Source of the DNA: Streptomyces sp. NBC_01498
GTDB lineage: Bacteria; Actinomycetota; Actinomycetes; Streptomycetales; Streptomycetaceae
Direction of reading: 5' to 3'
NCBI RefSeq assembly: GCF_036327775.1
Contig: NZ_CP109598.1
Span: 4,340,001 to 4,404,000 of the forward strand
DNA: 64,000 bases
A program made the position numbers and the translations under genes. The notes beneath the pieces were generated by a model, which had not been told where the DNA came from, ran no database searches, and was given only the letters and a program-made list of their open reading frames with translations. Position 1 is the first letter of the stretch, and every line of letters begins with the position of its first letter. This document shows positions 5,936 through 19,781 of the stretch, piece by piece.

Positions 5936-7273
5936 ATGAGTCGGACCGGACGAGTTGCCGGTGTGCCGGTGGCGGTGGCCATGGTGGTGTCGGCCGGTGC
6001 GTGCGCGGCCGACAGCAGCAGCGGGGGCGGTGAGCGGGCGGCGGCCTGTGCGCTTCAGTTCACCTATGAGGGGCGTACGTATCGGGACGTCGCGAATGTG
6101 GACTTCGTGATTGCCGGCAAGCTCGGTACCGCCACCAAACCCCCGTGCGACGACACCGGCGGCAACGGCCGGGACGAGGCACCGGAGGCGGGGATCACGG
6201 AGACGGAGACCGCGTATCAGGTGGACGGCATTTCCCCGAAGGTGGCCATCGCCGTCGGGGACACACCGGAGGAGGCCGTATTCGTGGCCGCGTACTCCGG
6301 CTCGGAACTGCCGCCCGACGTGCGGAAACTGATCGACGGTCCCTGCCACGAGACGCGGGGCGCGGCTGTCCGAACTCCGGCTGTGTCCCGCGCCGACCAC
6401 TACGCACCCCGGTGCGACCGCGACCGCGTTCTGCCGGCGGACGGCGGGCCGGCTGCCGCCCGACGGAGAGTCGGCCGGTCAGTCCTCGCCGCCCGCCCTG
6501 CGGGCCGCCGACTCCACGCGGTCGTGGTACGTGCCCCAGACCGGGTCGGCGGCCGGGGGCAGGTTGGCGCGGTCCTCGCGCAGACCCACGGCGCCGTCGA
6601 TCAGTTCGCGGACGATGTCGGCGTGGCCCGCGTGCCGGTCGGTCTCGGCGATCATGTGGACCAGGAGGCGGTGCAGCGTCGCCTCCGCCCGGTCCGCCGG
6701 CCACCACGGGACGACGCCGACCGCGTCGAGCGGCAGATCGGTGATCGTACGGTCCGCGTGTGCCCACGCCGCGCGGTACAAGCCCACGATCTCCTCGCGC
6801 GACTCCTCCGCCGTCGCCCACATGTCCGCGTTGGCCTCGGCCTCCTCCCCGTACCAGGCGGGCACCTCGTCCGGAGCGAAGTACGGCCGCCCGAACGTGT
6901 CGCCGAAGTAGCCGAGTTCCACGGCGGCGGCGTGTTTCACCAGCCCCAGCAGATTCGTCCCGGTGGGCGTCAGCGGGCGGCGGGCGTCGTACTCCGAGAG
7001 GCCGTCCAGCTTCCAGAGCAGGGAGTCACGGGCGCTCTGGAGGTAGCGGACCAGGTCCGCCTTCATGGTCGCCAGCTGCTGGTCCGCCATGTCGTTCTCT
7101 TCCACCATGCCGCGCAGTCTGCCACCCGGCGCCGCCGTCGGACCCGACCCCGGCCCCGACTCAGGACCCGGACTCCGCCGCCCCCGCCGCCTCGTCCGCC
7201 AGGTCCCGCAGCAGCGCCGCGCCGGTCGCGTCCGCCGGGTAGTACGACTCGATCGAGATCTCCTCGACGGTGA
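5936..7273 (+). CDS. DUF6281-like lipoprotein whose normal stop is lost; frame runs on antisense to the DinB gene
   Basis: The N-terminal ~135 residues (to about 6340) look like a Streptomyces DUF6281-type secreted lipoprotein: a short basic start, a hydrophobic stretch and a lipobox-like AGAC at 20-23, then a small domain with FTYEGRTYRDV, KLGTATKPPCDD, AVGDTPEEAVFVA and a C-terminal SGSELPPDVRKLIDG. The ATG at 5936 is favoured over 5927 because TGAGGA lies about 8 bases upstream. After LIDG, where such proteins usually stop, the frame stays open to 7273, most of it opposite the DinB gene, and becomes Arg/Pro-rich without family character. The tail is therefore probably not native; a stop codon was lost by mutation, rearrangement or sequencing error. 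The lipoprotein's role is unknown. Confidence 0.5.
   Translation: MSRTGRVAGVPVAVAMVVSAGACAADSSSGGGERAAACALQFTYEGRTYRDVANVDFVIAGKLGTATKPPCDDTGGNGRDEAPEAGITETETAYQVDGISPKVAIAVGDTPEEAVFVAAYSGSELPPDVRKLIDGPCHETRGAAVRTPAVSRADHYAPRCDRDRVLPADGGPAAARRRVGRSVLAARPAGRRLHAVVVRAPDRVGGRGQVGAVLAQTHGAVDQFADDVGVARVPVGLGDHVDQEAVQRRLRPVRRPPRDDADRVERQIGDRTVRVCPRRAVQAHDLLARLLRRRPHVRVGLGLLPVPGGHLVRSEVRPPERVAEVAEFHGGGVFHQPQQIRPGGRQRAAGVVLREAVQLPEQGVTGALEVADQVRLHGRQLLVRHVVLFHHAAQSATRRRRRTRPRPRLRTRTPPPPPPRPPGPAAAPRRSRPPGSTTRSRSPRR
6479..7090 (-). CDS. DinB family protein (DUF664-like)
   Basis: This 203-residue four-helix-bundle protein belongs to the DinB/DUF664 superfamily, which includes mycothiol-dependent enzymes. 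Metal-ligand type histidines are seen in LLGLVKHAAAVELGYFG and in LHRLLVHMIAETDRHAGHADIVRELIDG, which is the characteristic C-terminal signature. The start at 7090 (MADQQL) is chosen because GGAAGAG precedes it; an ATG six codons upstream lacks a ribosome site. It is convergent with the overrunning lipoprotein frame on the other strand. The substrate is unknown; mycothiol involvement is only a family-level expectation. Confidence 0.85.
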   Translation of the reverse strand: MADQQLATMKADLVRYLQSARDSLLWKLDGLSEYDARRPLTPTGTNLLGLVKHAAAVELGYFGDTFGRPYFAPDEVPAWYGEEAEANADMWATAEESREEIVGLYRAAWAHADRTITDLPLDAVGVVPWWPADRAEATLHRLLVHMIAETDRHAGHADIVRELIDGAVGLREDRANLPPAADPVWGTYHDRVESAARRAGGED

Positions 7274-10353: not shown

Positions 10354-10554
10354 TCAGATCAGGTGGTCGAACTCGCCGGCCTTCACGCCGAGCAGGAAGG
10401 CGCGCAGCTTCGCCTTGTCGGTGGCGACGACGGTGTCCGGCGCCTCGCTCTCACGCAGGTGGATCTGGCCGTTGACGGAGGCGAGTTCGATGCAATCCCA
10501 CTCGGAGTCGCCGGAGAACGAGGACTTCTGCCAGTTGATGACGGGCTTGGTCAT
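10354..10554 (-). CDS. DUF397 protein (WhiJ-cluster type)
   Basis: This 66-residue DUF397 protein opens with INWQKSSFSGDSE, continues with DCIELAS and HLRESEAPDTV, and closes with KLRAFLLGVKAGEFDHL. DUF397 proteins work with XRE/DUF5753 (WhiJ-like) regulators in streptomycete development and antibiotic control, and are proposed to bind and modulate the regulator. It is the more distant of two DUF397 genes here, 730 bp from the second. The ATG at 10554 is chosen because the domain starts there; the upstream extension is shadow sequence. Confidence 0.88.
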   Translation of the reverse strand: MTKPVINWQKSSFSGDSEWDCIELASVNGQIHLRESEAPDTVVATDKAKLRAFLLGVKAGEFDHLI

Positions 10555-10598
10555 GGACCGTCTCGCCTTCTGTGAGTGTCGCGTTGTCTGGACTGCGT

Positions 10599-11015
10599 TC
10601 AGTGGGGCGTTCCGGCCGGTACGTCGGCCGGGACGAGGGGGAGTCGACGTCCCTCCGGCGTACGGAACTCGTGGTACGGACGGACCGTCCACTCCAGCCA
10701 GGCGCCCCGGTTACCGAGCGAGAACCCGCAGGTCTCGCCCCGGTGCAGGGCGGCGATCGCACGGACACAGCCGCCGCCCTCGGCCCAACTTAGGGCGCGT
10801 TTGCGCTCTTTGGGCGGAAGCGCGGCGGCGAGGGCGTGCACGGCCTTGCGGATCAGCCGAATGGCCTCAGCCGGGGTGTCCGCAGTGTGATGCTCGGCCT
10901 TCTCGACGTCCGGGCCCCCGGCGGTGAGCGGGTGGTGGGTGACGTGCTCGTACCAGTACCGGACCTCGACGCCGGGCACGGTTCGAGGGCAGGGCGAAGC
11001 TGCGGGCTGGTGCAT
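10599..11015 (-). CDS. conserved hypothetical protein of the WhiJ-like cluster
   Basis: This 138-residue protein is not recognised. It is cytoplasmic, helical in the middle (TPAEAIRLIRKAVHALAAAL, then PPKERKRALSWAEGGG) and basic, with a C-terminal WLEWTVRPYHEFRTPEG. The ATG at 11015 has GGAAGG about 7 bases upstream. It is 44 bp upstream of a DUF397 gene on the same strand and probably shares its transcript, so a role with the DUF397/XRE regulators is likely only by position. Confidence 0.6.
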   Translation of the reverse strand: MHQPAASPCPRTVPGVEVRYWYEHVTHHPLTAGGPDVEKAEHHTADTPAEAIRLIRKAVHALAAALPPKERKRALSWAEGGGCVRAIAALHRGETCGFSLGNRGAWLEWTVRPYHEFRTPEGRRLPLVPADVPAGTPH

Positions 11016-11285: not shown

Positions 11286-11483
11286 TCAGTGCACGAGGTG
11301 GTCGAACTCGCCCGCCTTGACGCCCGCGATGAAGGCGGCGAACTTGTCGCGGGTGGTGGTCGTAATTATGTTCGGGTCGTCGCTCTCGCGGACAAGGATG
11401 TCGTCGTTGCGTGCGGCGATCTCGACGCACTGCGGCCCTTCACCGGAGAAGGACGACTTTTGCCAGTTGATCTCTCTGCTCAT
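11286..11483 (-). CDS. DUF397 protein, partner of the adjacent XRE regulator
   Basis: This 65-residue DUF397 protein is a close relative of the one at 10354-10554. It opens REINWQKSSFSGEGPQC, has ILVRESDDPNIITTT in the middle and ends FIAGVKAGEFDHLVH. Its ATG follows the XRE gene's stop by 11 bp on the same strand, so the two form an operon. In the WhiJ family the DUF397 partner and XRE/DUF5753 protein act as a pair controlling target promoters; the target here is not known, though the divergent ATPase-DUF262-HipA operon is an obvious candidate. Confidence 0.9.
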   Translation of the reverse strand: MSREINWQKSSFSGEGPQCVEIAARNDDILVRESDDPNIITTTTRDKFAAFIAGVKAGEFDHLVH

Positions 11484-11494
11484 GCCTCGATCTT

Positions 11495-12349
11495 TCAGAG
11501 TTCCCGGGCGATGTGGTGAATGAAGCTGCGTGACTCGGCAGGTTCCAGTGAAGCCTGCTCGGCGAAGTCCAGCAACGTCCGGTGTCTGTCCAGCTCGGCG
11601 GCGGCGTCGAGAAAGAGTCCCCCTGCGGGCGCATCAACATGGGTGGTGTCGAGTTGGGGGACGACGCCGCCCGCGTACATCACTGTTTGGGTGAGGTCGA
11701 TGAAGTCCTCGTTGGTGAAAGGGATGATCCGGAGCATGATCTCGGGCCGCTCGGACATCTCGATGAGGTGTTCCAATTGGCCGCGTGCGACCTTCCGTCC
11801 GCCGATGCGCATGCGGAGTGCCGCCTCGTGGACGATCGCCTCCAACTCAGGGGGCTGCTCGCGCTCAAAGATGGCCTTGCGCCTCATGCGGTGTTCGACT
11901 CGGGCTCCTACCTCGGTGGCGGGAAGCTTCGGCAGGACGCTGTCGAACAGGCGGCGTGCGTAGTCCTCCGTTTGCAAAACGCCGGGAAAGGTGACCGGCT
12001 GGAGATAGCGGAGATGGACCGCGTGATGTTCCAACTCGGCGAGGTTCAGAAAGTCGGGCGCGAGGATGCCTCGGTAGTCGTCCCACCAGTACTGGCCCCG
12101 GTGCTCGCCCGCGATGGCGCAAAGCGCCTCGATCAGCTCGGAGTTGTCGCAGGCGTAGAAGGCCACAAGCCGACGGATCCGCTCCTCGCTGATGCCGATG
12201 CGGCCTGCCTCGATGTGGCTGATCCTGGCCTGATCCGTCGAAAGCAGCCCGGCTGCCTCGCGAGCCGTCTTTCCCGCGCGGTCGCGCAGTTTCCGCAACT
12301 CCAGACCCAGGCGCACCTGGCGGGCCGTCGGGTTCTCTCTTGGCGGCAT
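11495..12349 (-). CDS. XRE family regulator with DUF5753 domain (WhiJ-like)
   Basis: This 284-residue DNA-binding regulator has an N-terminal XRE helix-turn-helix at about 10-65 (LGLELRKLRDRAGKTAREAA, then STDQARISHIEAG) and a C-terminal DUF5753 domain (about 100-280) with YLQPVTFPGVLQTEDYARRL, FEREQPPELEAIVHEAALRM and IIPFTNEDFIDL. The ATG at 12349 is chosen because GGGGAAGG precedes it and the domain begins directly. It is the first gene of an operon with the DUF397 gene and is divergent from the ATPase gene at 12511; the 161-bp spacer carries short inverted repeats that are plausible operators. Confidence 0.93.
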   Translation of the reverse strand: MPPRENPTARQVRLGLELRKLRDRAGKTAREAAGLLSTDQARISHIEAGRIGISEERIRRLVAFYACDNSELIEALCAIAGEHRGQYWWDDYRGILAPDFLNLAELEHHAVHLRYLQPVTFPGVLQTEDYARRLFDSVLPKLPATEVGARVEHRMRRKAIFEREQPPELEAIVHEAALRMRIGGRKVARGQLEHLIEMSERPEIMLRIIPFTNEDFIDLTQTVMYAGGVVPQLDTTHVDAPAGGLFLDAAAELDRHRTLLDFAEQASLEPAESRSFIHHIAREL

Positions 12350-12416
12350 GTCACCTTCCCCTGTTTGCGACCAGTCTCGCCCGGAACCCTCCTGCGGTTC
12401 CACTCACCTCACCGGA

Positions 12417-12510: not shown

Positions 12511-12972
12511 ATGCCCCCCACCACCTCCACGCCCACCACCCCGCCGCCCCGACACGGCGGTGAGAGCTACCGGCTCGTCGTCCCCAACACCGCCCACGCG
12601 CCCCGACTCGCCCGGGACTTCCTGAGCACCCTCCTCCACATCAGCGGGTACACCCCCCTCGTGGACGACGCCCGGCTCTGCGTCACCGAGTTGGTCAGCA
12701 ACGCGCACCGGCACACCCGGAGCCGGGTCATCCGGGTCGAGGCCGTCGTCAACCGGAAACAGGCGACCGTGTACGTCTGCGACAACAACCCGTGGGACCT
12801 GCCCGTACCCGGCAACACCGACCCGGCCCGGGGCGACGTCCCCGAAGGCGGGCAGGGGCTGCGGCTCGTGGAGAGTCTGACCCGGGCCTGGGGGCTCACC
12901 GTCTACGGCGGCTGCTCGCCCGCGTACAAGGCCGTCTGGTTCACCCTTGCCCGCCAAGGCGCCACCCCGTGA
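12511..12972 (+). CDS. ATP-binding regulator (RsbW/SpoIIAB-like HATPase)
   Basis: This 153-residue GHKL-fold ATPase is of the anti-sigma-factor kinase type common in Streptomyces. After a Pro/Thr-rich start it shows the N-box CVTELVSNAHRHT (about 57-69), a G1-like VYVCDNNPWDLP and a G2-like GGQGLRLVESL. Such proteins may phosphorylate anti-anti-sigma factors or bind sigma factors, and single copies commonly sit beside WhiJ-like XRE/DUF397 genes. It is the first gene of a four-gene chain in which each stop overlaps the next start by 4 bp, ending in DUF262 and HipA genes. Confidence 0.88.
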   Translation: MPPTTSTPTTPPPRHGGESYRLVVPNTAHAPRLARDFLSTLLHISGYTPLVDDARLCVTELVSNAHRHTRSRVIRVEAVVNRKQATVYVCDNNPWDLPVPGNTDPARGDVPEGGQGLRLVESLTRAWGLTVYGGCSPAYKAVWFTLARQGATP

Positions 12973-13154
12973 CCCACCTCGTCGCCGACTTCCTCCTGGC
13001 CGCCGCCGCTCTGGCCACCCTCGCCGCCGGGCTCGTCCGGGCCGGGCGCTCGCCCCGTGCGACCCGCCGGGCCGTCCCCGGCATCGACGTTCCATCCGTG
13101 GAAGGATCGAAAGGCAACGGATCAGCACGCCCTCGCGGCTTGGAGCAGCCATGA
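12969..13154 (+). CDS. small single-pass membrane protein
   Basis: This 61-residue protein starts with GTG inside the ATPase stop (GTGA) and stops inside the start of the DUF262 gene (ATGA). Residues about 4-23 (LVADFLLAAAALATLAAGLV) form one hydrophobic helix, followed by a basic, polar tail (RAGRSPRATRR and beyond). The two exact overlaps argue that it is translated. No family is recognised. It could anchor or regulate the neighbouring proteins at the membrane, but that is speculation from position. Confidence 0.6.
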   Translation: MTHLVADFLLAAAALATLAAGLVRAGRSPRATRRAVPGIDVPSVEGSKGNGSARPRGLEQP

Positions 13155-14893
13155 CCACCGATCCCTCAGGGCTCAGCGTGCGGCCCGCCGTGACCGCGTA
13201 CAAGATCGGCGATCTGGTTCGGCTTGCCTGGAGCGGGCAGCTCCGCGTACCCCACTTTCAGCGGGACTTCCGCTGGGAGAGCCAGGACGTGGTGCGGCTG
13301 TTCGACAGCATCGTCAAGGGGTATCCCATCGGGAACCTCCTCTTCGCCGTACGCGGACAGGAGTCGGAGGAGGAGTTCCGGCTCGGCCGGCTCCGGCTGA
13401 CCAGCCCGGTTTCCGGTGAGTCGTTGTGGGTCGTGGACGGTCAGCAGCGCGTCACCAGCCTGGCCAACGCGCTGAGCGCCGACGCGCACTCGTACCGTCC
13501 CTTCAACGTCTCCTACGACCTCGTCGCGCGGGAATTCGTGGAAGGCCCGGGGCCGCGGGACACGCACCGCGTGCCTCTTCCCCTCCTCTTCGACCTTCCG
13601 AAGCTGGTGACTTGGTTCAGTCGCGTGGGAGACGACGTCACCGAGTTGCTGGACGAAGCTGTGCGCGTGGCCTTCGCGATCGAGCGGTACGAGGTGCCCG
13701 CCTATCTCGTCCGGGGGGACGACCGGCAAGTCCTCACCGAGGTCTTCGACCGGGTCAACAGCCACGGTCGCAGGCTGAACCGTGCCGAGGTCTTCTCCGC
13801 GCTGTACTCCGGCGACGGCGGGGAGGGCCGGGAAGAGCTGACGCTCGGTGGGATCGCCGACAACGTCGCGGCCCGCACGGGGTTCGGCAGGATCGATGCC
13901 GACACCGTCCTCGCCGCCATCCTGGCCCGGCGGGGGCCCGACCCCGGGAGGGACGCCCGGCACGAATTCGATGCCACCGAGGGAGGGGCGGACCCCTCCG
14001 ACTTTCCCGGTGAGGACCGGCGTACCGCCTACGCCGAGGGTGAGGAGGCGCTTGTACGGGCGGTGGACTTCCTGATCCGGGAAGCGGCCGTCCCGCACGT
14101 CTCCCTGCTGCCCTATCGCACGCTGCTGGTGCTCCTCACCCGATTCCTCGCGCACTTCCCCCGGCCGCGCCCCAACAGCCTGCGACTCCTGCGCCGCGTG
14201 TTCTGGAGGCTCTGTCTTGGTGGACCGATCACTGACAACCGCGCATTCCGAGTGTTCCTCACCGCCAAGATTGGTCCAGGGGACGAGGACGGCTCGCTGC
14301 GAGCTCTGCTCGGCGCCCTCCCCGCCGCCAGGCCCCCGCTGCCCCAGATCCACCCATTCCGGCCCCCCGAAGCGGCGACGAAGATCGTCCTCAGCGCTTG
14401 GTGGTCGCTGCGTCCCCGTTCGTTCGTCACCGGCCGGGTTCTTGACGCGCACGATCTCGATTCCGTTCTCCAGCAGGACCGGGCCGCCCTCAACGCCACG
14501 CCGATGATCTACCCCGGACTCGGGAACGCGGTGCTGAGACTGGGGTGTGCCAACAGGCTCCTTCTCCCCAGCGACGACGACCCCGTGTCCGAGATCCCCG
14601 GCGCCCTCGCCCACCAGCCCGTCGGACTGGACGACGCGACCTGGGACGCCGTACTCGCCTCCCATCTGCTCGACCGCGACACCGCCGCGCTCGCGGACCG
14701 GGACCCCGAAGCCTTCCTCGAAGCCCGGCAGCGGCGGATCTCCCGTCAACTGGCCGGCTTCGTCGCGCGTATGACCGAGTGGGACTACGAGGACACCCCC
14801 GCCCTCGACTCGCTCGACCTGGACGACGAGTTCCAGGACACCGAGTTCCAGGACAACCAGTTCCAGGACACCGAGGACACGGACCGCCCATGA
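13151..14893 (+). CDS. DUF262 (GmrSD N-domain/ParB-like) protein
   Basis: This 580-residue protein has a DUF262 domain at the N-terminus: VPHFQRDFRWESQDV at about 33-47, then LWVVDGQQRVTSL with the DGQQR motif at 96-100, and the later FDRVNSHGRRLNRAEVFSAL. In GmrSD type IV restriction enzymes DUF262 supplies the NTPase/ParB-like module and a DUF1524 HNH domain cuts; no HNH motif is visible here. The C-terminus has a short tandem run DEFQDTEFQDNQFQDTEDT. The ATG at 13151 overlaps the previous stop, and the stop overlaps the HipA start. It probably acts with HipA, but the target is unknown. Confidence 0.85.
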   Translation: MTTDPSGLSVRPAVTAYKIGDLVRLAWSGQLRVPHFQRDFRWESQDVVRLFDSIVKGYPIGNLLFAVRGQESEEEFRLGRLRLTSPVSGESLWVVDGQQRVTSLANALSADAHSYRPFNVSYDLVAREFVEGPGPRDTHRVPLPLLFDLPKLVTWFSRVGDDVTELLDEAVRVAFAIERYEVPAYLVRGDDRQVLTEVFDRVNSHGRRLNRAEVFSALYSGDGGEGREELTLGGIADNVAARTGFGRIDADTVLAAILARRGPDPGRDARHEFDATEGGADPSDFPGEDRRTAYAEGEEALVRAVDFLIREAAVPHVSLLPYRTLLVLLTRFLAHFPRPRPNSLRLLRRVFWRLCLGGPITDNRAFRVFLTAKIGPGDEDGSLRALLGALPAARPPLPQIHPFRPPEAATKIVLSAWWSLRPRSFVTGRVLDAHDLDSVLQQDRAALNATPMIYPGLGNAVLRLGCANRLLLPSDDDPVSEIPGALAHQPVGLDDATWDAVLASHLLDRDTAALADRDPEAFLEARQRRISRQLAGFVARMTEWDYEDTPALDSLDLDDEFQDTEFQDNQFQDTEDTDRP

Positions 14894-16167
14894 AGACGAC
14901 CGCCCTCGCCGAGAACTACTACGCCGTGCTGCTCCACGGGCAGCGCGTCGGCACGCTGTGCCAGAAGGGCGACCACACGCGTTTCGTGACGGCCGAGCGG
15001 TACCTCACGGACCCGGCGCGGTCCGTGCTCGGCCTGCGGTTCGAGGAGAGTCCCGGGGCGCCGTACTCGTCGGCACTGAAACTGCCGCCGTGGTTCTCGA
15101 ACCTGCTGCCCGAAGGCCCCCTCCGCGAGTGGATCGCCGACGACCGGGGCGTCTCCCTCGACCGGGAGACCGAACTGCTGGCACAGGTCGGCCACGACCT
15201 GCCCGGCGCCGTCCAGGTACTCCGCGCGGAGGGACCCGACGACGACTTCGAGTGGCAGGAGCCAGGTGACCTCTCGGCGGGGAGCGCCGGGAGACGGGAC
15301 GACGTGGCCGGCACGTCCCCCTGGCGCTTCTCACTCGCGGGTGTCGCGCTGAAGTTCTCGATGCTCGCCCGGGGCGACCGGCTCACGGTGCCCATCGGCG
15401 GGGAACTGGGCGATTGGCTGGTCAAGTTCCCCGACTACCGCCACGCGGACGTGCCTCGCAACGAGTTCGCGATGATGTCGCTCGCCCGTGCCGTCGGGCT
15501 GGACGTGCCGGACATCCGGCTGCTGCACCGGGACGAACTCGACGGGCTGCCGGACCGCATGTGGCCCAACGACGAGCGATGGGCCTATGCGGTCCGGCGG
15601 TTCGACCGGACGTCGGACGGGAGCGGGGCGCGGATCCACATCGAGGACTTCGCGCAGGTGCGGGACAAGTACGCGCGGGACAAGTACCAGTCGACCTTCG
15701 AGACGGTGGCCGCGCTCTCCTACCGAGGCCGCGACGTGGCCTCGCTCCGTGAGGCCGTACGGCGGATCGCGTTCTCGCTGGCCGTCGGCAACGGCGACGC
15801 CCATCTGAAGAACTGGTCACTGATCTACCGCGACGGCCGCACCCCGTCACTCTCCCCGGTGTACGACCTGGTCTCGACCGTTCCGTACGCGCCCCGCGAC
15901 GAACCCGAGGACCTGGGGCTGAAGTTCGGCGGCACCAAGCGGTTCGAGCGCGTGTCGCTCGGTGCCTTCGGGCGGCTCGAAGCGGCACTGGACCGCCGGT
16001 TCACGCCCGCCGGGGCCCAACTCACCGCCGTGGCCGAGGAGACCGTGCGGGCCGTACGGGAGCAGTGGCCCGCCCACGAAGAGCCGCTGGCCGGCAACCC
16101 GCGGCTTCGCGAGGCGGTCGGGTCGTGGATCTCCACGGCCACGGACCGGCTGCTGCCCGAACGCTGA
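14890..16167 (+). CDS. HipA-like serine/threonine kinase
   Basis: This 425-residue HipA-family protein has an N-terminal coupling subdomain (about 1-115, with NLLPEGPLREWIA and LLAQVGHDLPGAVQV) and a kinase domain. WRFSLAGVALKFSM (about 145-158) aligns with the HipA loop containing the autophosphorylated serine; DWLVKFPDYRHADVPRNEFA holds the lysine; NGDAHLKN (301-308) is the catalytic loop; and LSPVYDLVST (321-330) is the metal-binding segment, so activity looks intact. E. coli HipA phosphorylates glutamyl-tRNA synthetase and is inhibited by HipB. No HipB-type gene adjoins it; instead DUF262 and a small membrane protein precede it in an overlapping operon. Its neutralising partner is therefore unknown. 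Confidence 0.9.
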   Translation: MKTTALAENYYAVLLHGQRVGTLCQKGDHTRFVTAERYLTDPARSVLGLRFEESPGAPYSSALKLPPWFSNLLPEGPLREWIADDRGVSLDRETELLAQVGHDLPGAVQVLRAEGPDDDFEWQEPGDLSAGSAGRRDDVAGTSPWRFSLAGVALKFSMLARGDRLTVPIGGELGDWLVKFPDYRHADVPRNEFAMMSLARAVGLDVPDIRLLHRDELDGLPDRMWPNDERWAYAVRRFDRTSDGSGARIHIEDFAQVRDKYARDKYQSTFETVAALSYRGRDVASLREAVRRIAFSLAVGNGDAHLKNWSLIYRDGRTPSLSPVYDLVSTVPYAPRDEPEDLGLKFGGTKRFERVSLGAFGRLEAALDRRFTPAGAQLTAVAEETVRAVREQWPAHEEPLAGNPRLREAVGSWISTATDRLLPER

Positions 16168-16176
16168 CCCCCCAAG

Positions 16177-16863
16177 TCACCAGGACAGCACCCCGTTCTC
16201 GTCCTGGAGCGTGCCCGTCTGGGCGTTCGTGTCGGCGGTCGCGAGGCGGACGACGACCGCGGCGCTCTCCTCCACCGCCCGGCCGATGCCGAACGCCGCC
16301 GTCATGTCGGTGGCCGTGGCGCCGGGTTCGACCGCGGTGAAGGTGATGGACGGGTGGGCCTTGGCGTACTGGACCGTGAGCATGGTGGCCGCCGCCTTGG
16401 AGGCGGAGTAGAGCGCCAGCGGCATGCCGTACTCCGGCCGGTCCGGATTGGTCACCGCCCAGAACGAGCCGAGGCTGCTCGACACGGTGACCACGGTCGG
16501 GTTGGAGGACTCGCGGAGCAGGGGAAGCGCGGCCTCGGTGACGCGTACGACGCCCACCGCGTTGGTGTCGAAGGCCAGGAGGGCCGCCGGGCCGTCGACG
16601 GGTCCGTCCGCGAGGATGCCCGCGTTGTTCACCAGGACGTCGAGACGGCCCTCGGCCGTCTCTATCGCCGCCAGGGCGCGGGTCACCGACGCGTCGTCGG
16701 TCACGTCGAGTTGCACGCTTCGCGCGCCGAGCGCCGCCGCGGCCTTCTCGCCGCGCTCGGGGTCGCGCGAGCCGATGTAGACGACGTGGCCCAGGGCCAG
16801 AAGCTGGCGGGCCGTCTCGTAGCCGATGCCCTTGTTGGCGCCGGTGATCAGGGTGATGGTCAT
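16177..16863 (-). CDS. SDR family NAD(P)-dependent oxidoreductase
   Basis: This 228-residue classical short-chain dehydrogenase has the cofactor motif TGANKGIGYETA near the N-terminus, a DVTDDASV segment, the NNAG motif (LVNNAGIL), a catalytic serine in VVTVSSSLGSF, and the YxxxK pair in YSASKAAATM. An arginine after the second strand (SRDPERG) suggests NADP preference. It is the distal gene of a minus-strand pair with a SnoaL-like protein, divergent from a TetR regulator, which likely controls both. The substrate is unknown. Confidence 0.92.
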   Translation of the reverse strand: MTITLITGANKGIGYETARQLLALGHVVYIGSRDPERGEKAAAALGARSVQLDVTDDASVTRALAAIETAEGRLDVLVNNAGILADGPVDGPAALLAFDTNAVGVVRVTEAALPLLRESSNPTVVTVSSSLGSFWAVTNPDRPEYGMPLALYSASKAAATMLTVQYAKAHPSITFTAVEPGATATDMTAAFGIGRAVEESAAVVVRLATADTNAQTGTLQDENGVLSW

Positions 16864-16914
16864 GTCTGTCCCCAGGGGTGAGGTGGTCCGGGTGGGCGGT
16901 GGATGGTCCGGAGG

Positions 16915-17307
16915 TCAGCCGGTCAGCTGGCGGTGCAGTTCGCCCGCGTCGTGCAGGGCGGTCATGTGAGCGAACCGCCCGTCGCGGACCTGGTAGATGG
17001 CGTATTCGGTGATCTCGAACGAGGCGCCGGTAGGAGCCACGCCGAGCCATTCCTTCGCGGGGGTGCCCGTGTTGACGAGGCGCGCGGCCAGGCGGTCGCC
17101 GTCGAAGAGCAGGTCCTTCAGCTCCCAGTGGAGGTCCGGGACCGCGTCCACGTCGTGGCGCTGGACCGCGAGGAGATCGTCCCGGGTGGCCGGCTCGCCG
17201 TTCAGGGTGGTCCGGTCGTTGATGAACTCGGCCATCCCGTCGAACCGGTGGGCGTTGAGAGCCTCGATGTAGCGCAGGTAGAACGCGCGCAGCTCACTGT
17301 CGGACAT
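16915..17307 (-). CDS. SnoaL-like (NTF2-fold) protein
   Basis: This complete 130-residue SnoaL-like polyketide-cyclase/ester-cyclase family protein has an N-terminal helix [20 protein letters not shown], a central [20 protein letters not shown] and the C-terminal [19 protein letters not shown]. Such proteins catalyse aldol cyclisation or have unknown small-molecule roles. It precedes the SDR gene on the same strand and faces a TetR gene across a 114-bp spacer that holds two operator-like palindromes. Substrate unknown. Confidence 0.88.
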
Positions 17308-17351
17308 GAGGTGACCCCCTTCAGGGCGCGGGTGCGCCCCCTCCGGATTGT

Positions 17352-17365
17352 GTAGCGATCGCTAC
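17352..17365. promoter_or_regulatory. TetR operator candidate (perfect 14-bp palindrome)
   Basis: GTAGCGATCGCTAC is perfectly palindromic and lies between the divergent SnoaL-SDR genes and the TetR gene. The length and symmetry are typical of TetR-family operators, so autoregulation and control of the divergent pair are likely. Confidence 0.6.
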
Positions 17366-17387
17366 CGAAGTTGAATGTAGCACTTCT

Positions 17388-17401
17388 GTAGTGATCGATG
17401 C
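17388..17401. promoter_or_regulatory. second, imperfect TetR operator copy
   Basis: GTAGTGATCGATGC resembles the palindrome 36 bp upstream at 10 or more of 14 positions and lies about 20 bp before the TetR GTG start. Two half-strength sites on one spacer suggest cooperative or differential binding. Confidence 0.45.
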
Positions 17402-17421
17402 GGAAGGAGTAGCATGACCGT

Positions 17422-18030
17422 GTGGAGACGAAACGGAGCGGCAACGTCGGCCGGCCGCGAGGATTCGACGCCGACGAGGCGCTTGAGCGCGCGATGCTCG
17501 TTTTCTGGGAGCACGGCTACGAGGGGGCCTGCACGGCTGCCCTGACGCAGGCGATGGGTATCTCCACCACCAGCATGTACGCGGCGTTCGGCAACAAGGA
17601 GAAGCTGTTCCGCAAGGCGCTGGAGCGCTACTCCGAGGGGCCGGGCGGCTATCTGGTCCGCGCTCTGGACGAGCCGACCGCCCACGGTGTGGCCACCGGG
17701 ATCCTGGCCGGGGCCGTACGCACCACCACCCGCCCGGACCGGCCCCGGGGATGCCTCGGTGTCCAGGGCGCCCTGACTGTCGGCGGCTCCGGGCGGGAGG
17801 TCCGTGACCTGCTCGTCGCCTGGCGCGACGACGGCTGCGCGCGCGTCGCGGAGCGGTTCCGGCGGGCCGTGGACGAGGGGGATCTGCCCGCGGACGCCGA
17901 TCCGGGGCTGCTGGCCCGCTACGTCACGACCTTCGCGCACGGCCTCGCCGTGCAGGCCGCGAGCGGTGCCGGCCGCGAGGAACTCCAGGAGCTGGCGGAC
18001 ACCGCCCTGCGTCACTGGCCGCTCTCCTGA
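17422..18030 (+). CDS. TetR/AcrR family regulator
   Basis: This 202-residue TetR regulator has an N-terminal helix-turn-helix (about 10-60) with RGFDADEALERAMLVFWEHGYEG-type helices and ISTTSMYAAFGNKEKLF as the recognition region. The C-terminal ligand domain has LEARYSEG-like and CLGVQGALTVGG segments, resembling the TetR_C subgroup linked to SDR genes. The start is GTG at 17422. It is divergent from the SnoaL/SDR genes and is probably their repressor. A strong terminator hairpin lies 150 bp downstream. The effector is unknown. Confidence 0.9.
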   Translation: METKRSGNVGRPRGFDADEALERAMLVFWEHGYEGACTAALTQAMGISTTSMYAAFGNKEKLFRKALERYSEGPGGYLVRALDEPTAHGVATGILAGAVRTTTRPDRPRGCLGVQGALTVGGSGREVRDLLVAWRDDGCARVAERFRRAVDEGDLPADADPGLLARYVTTFAHGLAVQAASGAGREELQELADTALRHWPLS

Positions 18031-18090
18031 GGCGTCTTCCGTCCTTCACGACCCGGCCCGGTGGGCGGCCGGGGGCAGGCCGCGGGCATC

Positions 18091-18153
18091 GTGGCGCGGG
18101 TGGCGCGGGTGGCGCGGGTGGCGCGGGTGGCGCGGGTGGCGCGGGTGGCGCGG
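18091..18153. repeat. 9-bp tandem repeat, seven copies
   Basis: GTGGCGCGG is repeated seven times without change in the spacer between the TetR gene and the sugar dehydrogenase gene. It codes for nothing convincing and looks like slipped-strand expansion. Confidence 0.85.
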
Positions 18154-18176
18154 GCGCCCCGGCCCCGGACGTGCGT

Positions 18177-18210
18177 CGGGCCCGGTGCCGACCGCTCGGC
18201 ACCGGGCCCG
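18177..18210. terminator. 15-bp perfect hairpin, bidirectional terminator
   Basis: Arms of 15 bp (18177-18191 and 18196-18210) pair perfectly around a CCGC loop. It lies between convergent genes, 20 bp past the stop of the sugar dehydrogenase, so it can end transcription from both sides. Confidence 0.8.
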
Positions 18211-18230
18211 ACGTCATGCTCCGGGCGTGA

Positions 18231-19376
18231 CTACGCCGGATCGATACGGGAGATCGAGCCGCCGATGCCCAGCACGTACAGCTCACCCGCGCCGTCCTGC
18301 ACGAACGAGATGGCCTCGCCGCCGTTGACCCCGAGGTCGCCCTGGCCGGTCACCGTGCCGTTGCGCATCTTCAGCGTGCGCACCGTGCCGTCGCAGTAGT
18401 CGCTGAAGACGTACTGGCCCCGGAGGGACGGGATCGCCTTGCCCCGGTAGACGTAGCCGCCGGTCACCGAGCAGCCGAGGCCCGTGCGGTCGTACTCGAA
18501 CACCGGCGGCACGTGGTTCGCCGGCTCCGTGCCGCCCCGGAACGGGTGGGTGCCCTCCATCGAGGACCAGCCGTAGTTCTCGCCGCCCTTGTTCCGCGCC
18601 GGGGCCCAGTCGATCTCCTCCCAGTCGCTCTGGCCGACGTCGCCGATCAGGATGTCGCCGTTGGCCGAGTCGAAGGAGAAGCGCCAGGGGTTGCGGAGCC
18701 CGTACGCCCAGATCTCGTCCCTGGCGGTCGGGTCGTTCACGAACGGGTTGTCCGACGGGATCGCGTACGCCTGGCCGCGCCTGGCGCCCGCCGGGTCGAT
18801 GCGGAGGATCTTGCCGAGCAGGGTGTCGAGGTTCTGCCCGTTGCCGTGCGGGTCGCCGCCCGCGCCGCCGTCGCCGAGCGCGATGTAGAGGTAGCCGTCG
18901 GGGCCGACCTTGATGTCACCGCCGTTGTGGTTCTCGTACGGCTGCGTCTGGGTCAGGACGGTGCGTCGTGTCTGCGGCTGGAGCCTGCCGTTGCGTACGG
19001 CGATCTCGTCGATGGTGCTGGTGCCTTCGAGGTCCGTGTACGAGATGTAGAAGCGCGCGAAGTTCTTGTCGAACGCGACGCCCAGCAGGCCGCGTTCGCC
19101 GTCGGTCGTTGTCTCGTCGGATATGTCGAGGACCGGCGCGCCGAGGCCCTGGGGGCCCAGGACCCGTACGGTGCCCGCGCGTTCGGCGATCCAGACCGTG
19201 CCGCGGGGTCCGGCGGCGCCCGCGATCGGGTTGGTGGCTGTGCCCACTTCCGTGAGCTTCACGCCGGCCGCCGGGCGCGGGGCGGCGGACTCGTCGGCCG
19301 AGGCCGTGGTCAGTGCGAGGGAAGCGAAGAGTGCGATGGTGCCGATGACTGCCGTGCATCTGGTGCGAACTCTCAC
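18231..19376 (-). CDS. secreted PQQ-dependent sugar (glucose/sorbosone) dehydrogenase
   Basis: This 381-residue exported protein of the glucose/sorbosone dehydrogenase family forms a six-bladed propeller that can bind PQQ. The GTG at 19376 is chosen because AGGAGGTCACC precedes it; a long upstream extension in frame is Arg/Pro shadow sequence. A signal peptide covers about residues 1-27 (basic start, IGTIALFASLALTTASA). Family motifs include GERGLLGVAFDKNF, YENHNGGDIKVGPDGYLYIA, LGDGGAGGDPHGNGQN, GLRNPWRFSFD, and CSVTGGYVYRG. Ligands of PQQ and calcium are expected in these loops. A DasR-like palindrome lies 140 bp upstream, suggesting control by aminosugar supply. Whether PQQ is bound is not known. 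Confidence 0.9.
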   Translation of the reverse strand: MRVRTRCTAVIGTIALFASLALTTASADESAAPRPAAGVKLTEVGTATNPIAGAAGPRGTVWIAERAGTVRVLGPQGLGAPVLDISDETTTDGERGLLGVAFDKNFARFYISYTDLEGTSTIDEIAVRNGRLQPQTRRTVLTQTQPYENHNGGDIKVGPDGYLYIALGDGGAGGDPHGNGQNLDTLLGKILRIDPAGARRGQAYAIPSDNPFVNDPTARDEIWAYGLRNPWRFSFDSANGDILIGDVGQSDWEEIDWAPARNKGGENYGWSSMEGTHPFRGGTEPANHVPPVFEYDRTGLGCSVTGGYVYRGKAIPSLRGQYVFSDYCDGTVRTLKMRNGTVTGQGDLGVNGGEAISFVQDGAGELYVLGIGGSISRIDPA

Positions 19377-19781
19377 CGGTGACCTCCTGGAGGCGGCGAA
19401 TCGGGACCCGGCTGCTCGGGGGCAGTGTGGGGTGGGCGTCGCGCGGGCCGGCACAGCCCGGGGTGGGGGACGTGTGTGCCGCCGGCCACGCATGAGAATA
19501 CAGAGACGGAAGGGTTTGGCCTAGACCAATAGTCGTCCGCTCGCTTCCGGCCGTCCGTAGCCCCGGCCGTCCCTTGTCCCGGCCGTTCCTTTCCTTGCCC
19601 CGGCCGTCCCCTGTCCCGGGCGCCCGTGGCCCCGGCGCTGCCCCTTCGGCCCCTGCGCTACCCGCCCCGGTCACGGCCCCGCGCCCATCAACCGGACCGC
19701 CCCCGCACCCCGCTCCCCGCGCCGACTACCCTGGGGGGTCGATCGTTCCGTTCCGTAAGCACGTCCCTCAGCTGGAGTGAA
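19377..19781. other. divergent spacer with CCGGCCGTCC repeats
   Basis: This 405-bp divergent spacer lies between the sugar dehydrogenase and ABC-F genes. It holds the ribosome site of the former, a DasR-like palindrome, and an imperfect repeat of CCGGCCGTCC (about four copies within 19546-19620). No gene is seen. Confidence 0.5.
19516..19529. promoter_or_regulatory. DasR (dre)-like palindrome
   Basis: TTGGCCTAGACCAA matches 11 of 12 positions of the TGGTCTAGACCA core of dre sites bound by the GntR-family regulator DasR, which represses chitin/GlcNAc genes. It lies 140 bp upstream of the secreted sugar dehydrogenase start. Confidence 0.45.

Follow-up and report, generated by a model that had tools for sequence, protein, structure and literature searches.

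In a 64,000-nucleotide stretch of the single-contig, 7.27-Mb genome of Streptomyces sp. NBC_01498 (NZ_CP109598.1, positions 4,340,001 to 4,404,000; hereafter the window), a gene encoding a DUF262 protein lies directly upstream of one encoding a HipA-family kinase. An earlier, sequence-only reading had combined these genes with a preceding anti-sigma-type ATPase gene and a small membrane protein gene into a four-gene operon for growth arrest or defence. Comparison with related loci indicates that the unit is instead the two genes encoding the DUF262 protein and HipA. The comparison revealed a conserved pair with no constant third gene, in which the DUF262 protein has lost its nuclease centre, HipA is intact, and DUF262 and HipB occupy the same position next to related kinases. 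We consider it probable (roughly 60%) that the pair is a two-gene, toxin-antitoxin-like and probably anti-phage module, with the DUF262 protein as sensor and brake and the HipA kinase as effector. Its elements in the window are:

13151..14893, + strand: gene for a DUF262 protein of 580 residues (GmrSD_N/DUF262, 2.7e-24, its sole Pfam family), the proposed sensor and brake
14890..16167, + strand: gene for a full-length HipA-family kinase of 425 residues (Couple_hipA, 4.2e-20; HipA_C, 5.7e-44), the proposed toxin and effector
14890..14893, + strand: ATGA stop-start overlap between the DUF262 and HipA genes, read from the sequence
14789..14827, + strand: codons of a motif in the DUF262 C-terminal tail (residues 547-559), a candidate HipA-docking or degradation element

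The sequence-only reading had proposed looking for co-occurrence in other genomes, and we found that the DUF262-HipA adjacency recurs across phyla, whereas the four-gene arrangement does not. In 199 genomes of the same genus, four places match the DUF262 protein at E<1e-140, the window included, and each is followed directly by HipA; at the other 26 of the 30 DUF262 loci fetched from this genus, no HipA lies within ~1.5 kb. Among 297 genomes of the family, HipA is directly downstream at nine of ten places (window included, and with one place cut off by the end of a contig). When one genome per species was scanned, 42 DUF262 loci emerged in Actinomycetota and Gammaproteobacteria. HipA sequence comes immediately after DUF262 in 39 of these (it is missing in L069, L075 and L084); the two genes are both intact in 32 loci, DUF262 alone in six and neither in four. 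Two Azospirillum plasmids, one of them conjugative with transfer genes nearby, also carry the pair, at a DUF262 identity of ~31%. Some genomes occur twice among our loci (L031/L044, L032/L051, L052/L159, L056/L160, L058/L161, L061/L174 and L083/L162).

The association also holds when the search begins from the kinase. Random neighbourhoods of HipA homologues would have spoken against a linkage, and for these two genes they were not found: in 296 genomes of the class we retrieved 30 HipA loci, and DUF262 is upstream of 15 of the 16 HipAs matching at E<=1e-61 (window included; the sixteenth is at a contig end) and of none of the 14 matching at E>=6e-31. A further close HipA beyond these 30 (L171) likewise has DUF262. 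Overlaps of 1-17 bp join the two genes in 28 of the 46 rows that could be assessed, and gaps of 0-72 bp separate them in the other 18, counted with script-chosen starts, with a few genomes represented twice and six rows with broken HipA excluded. No third gene is constant: within 5 kb on either side of the pair at 39 loci, the most frequent neighbour family appears at six, five of which are near relatives. Just one of the 39 (L056) has a HipB-like gene beside the pair on the same strand.

The window HipA consists of an N-terminal domain and a kinase domain whose catalytic residues are intact (NGDAHLKN at residue 301, SPVYDL at 322), as the sequence-only reading had judged from its motifs, and the genome contains no other HipA_C match. 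That reading was also right that no HipB adjoins it: no helix-turn-helix gene lies next to this HipA, and its upstream neighbour is DUF262. Residue S148, which we take to be the counterpart of the autophosphorylation site Ser150 of E. coli HipA (the title of structure 3tpb names HipA(S150A)), is invariant in 46 rows.

The DUF262 protein seems to derive from a restriction enzyme of the GmrSD/BrxU/SspE type whose nuclease centre was lost. Its nucleotide motifs are present (RLFDS at residue 49, DGQQR at 96), and DGQQR is conserved in all of 120 homologues (drawn, irrespective of neighbouring genes, from 773 at E<=0.001) and in 45 of 46 DUF262 proteins from pairs. A homologue is also recorded from the laboratory strain S. 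venezuelae ATCC 10712 (P0016). The domain still looks able to bind and hydrolyse nucleotide. It had been described as lacking the HNH half of GmrSD, which is correct for the catalytic residues, since PMIYP at residue 451 replaces the DHIYP of BrxU, but not for the region itself, which still aligns with seven HNH-bearing DUF262 proteins (526 columns in total; hhalign probability 100); the fold match to BrxU likewise runs along the length of the protein. By a column-based count, which we preferred to a loose HNH pattern matching 18 of the 120 homologues, the pair of HNH histidines is intact in none of 166 DUF262 homologues: the second is present in none, and the first column is H in 45.

DUF262 stands directly before HipA, in the place usually taken by HipB, and for this reason it probably restrains the kinase. 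A HipB-type helix-turn-helix gene is directly upstream of ten of the 14 distant HipAs of the class. Of 17 plasmid-borne HipAs inspected (drawn from 297 records with a match), which share 34-44% identity with the window protein, 14 are immediately preceded by a gene annotated as helix-turn-helix; in the other three, the stretch is unannotated, no annotated gene is directly upstream, or the upstream gene encodes an unnamed 117-residue protein. The six HipB-linked plasmid HipAs that were placed in a tree branch within the DUF262-linked clade (support 90/90); for this tree, which omitted five long-branch HipAs (L108, L110, L111, L113 and L114), 4% of the bootstrap replicates group the DUF262 rows on one side. 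Because of this nesting, the two partners, DUF262 and HipB, appear interchangeable, as if a single kinase family had used either of them in the same place.

The acidic C-terminal tail of the DUF262 protein is conserved (EDTPALDSLDLDD at residue 547). In 47 aligned rows, E547, T549 and L552 are each found in 44 and P550 in 43; the motif falls in a low-confidence stretch of the structure model. A pattern of hydrophobic-x-hydrophobic-acid-acid within the last 45 residues occurs in 33 of 46 pair DUF262 proteins and 86 of 120 homologues (shuffles predict ~9 and ~28), in eight of 15 plasmid HipBs (~1 expected), and in none of ten DUF262 proteins without HipA. An earlier version of the motif, P-x-hydrophobic-x-x-hydrophobic-hydrophobic, matched only 19 of 46 and was abandoned. 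That DUF262 and HipB share a tail motif is suggestive only, since the rows share ancestry and the motif was picked post hoc. All ten HipB-type proteins upstream of plasmid HipAs in L208-L217 end in AYxL plus an acidic stretch, and the eight in L210-L217 are long (187-198 residues).

The distances within the DUF262 and HipA families co-vary across 46 pairs, with a Mantel r of 0.93 compared to a maximum of 0.37 in 2000 permutations; these pairs, also used for the trees, exclude most broken loci and include L071, for which the longest open frame of a frameshifted HipA was used. Between the window and a related genome, G899, identity is 63% for DUF262 and 85% for HipA, as if the sensor evolved faster than the kinase, and the window DUF262 is on a long branch relative to its HipA. 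Decay is one-sided. An intact DUF262 gene with a broken or missing HipA is found at seven loci in six lineages (L061, L071, L075, L079, L083, L173 and L233, where L075 and L233 are one lineage), with L057, near a contig end, perhaps a further case of HipA loss, while an intact HipA with a broken DUF262 is found at none of 63 loci. The sole row listed as a broken DUF262 (L167) is a deep-branch protein with a single open frame that falls barely below the coverage threshold. In L079 (7769-8566, a Thiosymbion genome), the HipA behind DUF262 has an internal gap, with profile positions ~184-332 missing.

The two upstream genes belong to a separate locus. The features of this part of the window are:

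12511..12972, + strand: HATPase_c_2 (anti-sigma-type) gene (Pfam, 4.9e-11), an upstream neighbour in the window lineage, outside the conserved pair
12969..13154, + strand: open reading frame of 61 residues (the small membrane gene), without a Pfam family; its hydrophobic N-terminal stretch is part of the XRE/DUF397 locus and the remainder lies past the junction
11495..12403, - strand: XRE/DUF5753 regulator (Pfam), divergent, separate locus
11286..11483, - strand: DUF397 protein (Pfam), separate locus
13042..18167, no strand: segment not found at the same site in G890 (blastn), containing the pair and SDR, SnoaL-like and TetR genes

The four open reading frames and their three 4-bp overlaps (12969-12972, 13151-13154 and 14890-14893) are present as had been claimed. 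As one module, however, they do not recur: at none of the 42 related loci does the pair have a relative of the ATPase gene or of the membrane gene beside it (phmmer, 1e-3), and G890, a genome of the same genus, has the XRE gene, two DUF397 genes, the ATPase gene and the small open reading frame, but not the pair. In blastn, window positions 12529-13041 and 18168-19532 match adjacent stretches of G890 (6690-7205 and 7211-8565 of L158), so the DNA match ends at about 13041, inside the 61-residue frame, of which residues 2-38 match in G890. G899, the one other genome in which we saw the ATPase gene upstream of the pair, differs from G890 at the same point by an extra segment of 3.17 kb that contains just DUF262 and HipA and stops directly behind HipA. 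In the window, the SDR, SnoaL-like and TetR genes (16177-18030), which are absent at the G890 site, lie between the pair and a glucose/sorbosone dehydrogenase gene. Among 392 genomes of the genus, the best match to the 61-residue protein beyond the window is in G890 (4.3e-5), followed by G899 (3.9e-4); there are matches at 1e-3 to 0.01 in 26 more genomes, and in the seven of these that were fetched no pair lies within ~1.5 kb. The DUF262 protein and the membrane protein had both been named as possible brakes; the former is now the likely one, and we reject the latter because its best match outside the window is in a genome without the pair. Presence and absence at this one site, together with the conjugative Azospirillum plasmid, suggest that the pair moves.

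The divergent XRE/DUF5753 regulator and its DUF397 neighbour are present as described, but the reported gap of 161 bp to the ATPase gene holds only for an internal ATG start (12349); from the GTG at 12403 it is 107 bp. Two DUF397 genes lie near the regulator gene (10354-10692 and 11286-11483), and G890 and G899 likewise have two DUF397-like open reading frames. In two further genomes of the genus (L037, 6353-9186; L038, 6815-9981), an HNH-bearing DUF262 gene adjoins XRE/DUF5753 and DUF397 genes, which could reflect chance or a preferred site.

From these observations we infer binding, a brake role, a trigger, a HipA target, growth arrest and defence as follows. The DUF262 protein, made first from the often overlapping gene, would bind HipA, perhaps via the acidic tail, and keep the kinase inactive. 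Infection or the entry of foreign, perhaps modified, DNA would cause the DUF262 domain to change state via its nucleotide switch, and the freed HipA would halt growth by phosphorylating a host protein that is essential (an aminoacyl-tRNA synthetase, by analogy). More tentatively, and with somewhat less than even odds, the pair could be a restriction enzyme that swapped its nuclease for a kinase acting in trans, with the DUF262 domain sensing foreign and perhaps modified DNA through its nucleotide switch and releasing HipA to shut down the cell, and with DUF262 and HipB as interchangeable keepers that possibly dock by similar acidic tails.

Another way to read the same genes is that the DUF262 protein activates or targets a HipA that is silent by itself, for example through autophosphorylation at S148, and that is recruited to DNA or switched on after sensing. 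The invariance of S148 is in line with this, and a trans effector could be licensed as in SspE, where, according to the accessible part of PMC13251355, recognition drives nucleotide hydrolysis in the DUF262-type part, which licenses the effector domain. However, the one-sided decay, in which HipA is lost but DUF262 alone never is, fits a brake better, as do the HipB-like position and the exchange of partners, so we regard an activator as unlikely. An ordinary toxin-antitoxin pair that maintains plasmids or islands, or a stress regulator, in either case with no role against phages, seems more doubtful still. The conjugative plasmid with its transfer genes, the plasmid location of the HipB-linked kin and the lack of recurrent defence neighbours across 39 loci would all suit it, but DUF262 belongs to several restriction enzymes and candidate defence systems, and HipAD, the closest tested analogue, is anti-phage in the accessible parts of its reports. 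That all four genes form a single regulated operon in which HipA is under the control of the anti-sigma-type ATPase or of the membrane protein is very improbable: the three overlaps and the ATPase gene just upstream of the pair in G899 speak for it, but the 42 loci without relatives of either gene, G890 with both genes and no pair, and the two-gene segment of G899 led us to reject it.

Several findings count against a two-gene defence module with a DUF262 brake. The same lack of recurrent defence neighbours is one, and searches found no close relative in phage records (three weak matches, the best 26% over 42% of the query) or in viral contigs (32 partial matches, the best 40% over 90 residues), from which we also rejected a phage- or virus-borne origin. 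An opposite-strand gene of the XRE/DUF5753 type lies 0.3-0.7 kb upstream in three of the 42 loci (L064, L070 and L076), so the window is not alone in having a helix-turn-helix regulator nearby. Support for placing HipB-linked HipAs inside the DUF262-linked clade is just 90/90, after the five long-branch rows were removed, and in a tree with all 14 distant HipAs and no plasmid rows a single branch (99) separates the 46 DUF262-linked HipAs from the others. In the deepest DUF262 branches the tail motif is weaker, and the accessible part of PMC3376134 describes the E. coli HipB tail as a Lon degradation signal that is dispensable for HipA affinity. Joint inheritance would likewise yield the co-variation, and the broken HipA genes, few in number, may in draft genomes be sequencing errors. 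Finally, solitary DUF262 proteins of the pair's family exist without HipA (L075, 2185-3816; L233, 1486-3165), so DUF262 may have another role. In both, the C-terminal tail is altered, and a transposase-like remnant follows the L075 gene.

If the proposal is true, it adds a further gene organisation for HipA kinases and links HipA growth arrest to the DUF262 sensors of restriction enzymes. It would also give a concrete example of effectors being exchanged, one nuclease lost and one kinase borrowed, and of antitoxins being exchanged inside a single family of kinases, and it suggests that other DUF262 proteins with a dead HNH centre sense for partner effectors. The pair is thinly but broadly spread, in four of 199 genomes of the genus, nine of 297 of the family and in other phyla, mostly in soil actinomycetes.

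Among known systems, the type IV restriction enzymes GmrSD, BrxU and SspE share with the pair a DUF262 domain with RLFDS and DGQQR and, for BrxU, a fold match along its length, whereas the pair lacks the HNH catalytic residues and has a separate kinase gene instead. The best PADLOC family for the DUF262 protein is PDC-M55C (2.3e-50 for the window, 1e-62 for Azospirillum), on which we found no literature. Membership in PDC-M55, composed of an AAA ATPase (A), a component B and the DUF262 protein C, was rejected: none of the six window proteins scanned matches M55A or M55B, and HipA is present instead. PDC-M55 itself occurs in two genomes of the phylum with A and B beside M55C (L039, 7375-11259; L116, 254-3338, where only part of the ATPase falls within the stretch), and this M55C has one of the HNH histidines in L039 and none in L116. 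The ptuXYZ system, as far as its accessible description goes, resembles the pair in placing an HNH-less DUF262 protein beside a toxin-family effector, but has different partners (a PtuA-like ATPase and a PIN/YoeB-type RNase), a shorter DUF262 protein and no kinase; neither partner gene lies beside the window DUF262, whose neighbours are HATPase_c_2, the small family-less frame and HipA.

Our literature search, which left out preprints and covered subscription papers thinly, found no description of a DUF262-HipA pair, so that an account elsewhere is possible. The only paper found to mention HipA along with DUF262 or GmrSD, PMC11980606, does not pair them in its accessible text, and none of the papers found on DUF262 together with kinases, toxin-antitoxin systems and operons (PMC8565348 and PMC11341870 among them) mentions both DUF262 and HipA. 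The pair resembles hipBA in the HipA fold, the catalytic residues and a partner gene directly upstream, and differs in that the partner is a DUF262 instead of a helix-turn-helix protein; the survey of Hip kinases by Gerdes et al. (2021, PMC8262856) gives ten gene organisations, none with DUF262 in the part accessible, and it was not among the papers found to mention DUF262 alongside HipA. The nearest tested analogue is HipAD (DS-6, PADLOC PDC-M66), a two-gene HipA-kinase system with a non-HipB partner that neutralises the kinase; the accessible parts of PMC12548924 and PMC13092281 describe toxicity once the partner is lost and an end to defence once the kinase is. Its partner is DUF3037/DUF1829 instead of DUF262, and no window protein matches PDC-M66 (PADLOC, 1e-3). 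As a HipA kinase whose partner is not HipB, the pair would fall within a known kind, in which DUF262 appears to be a new partner.

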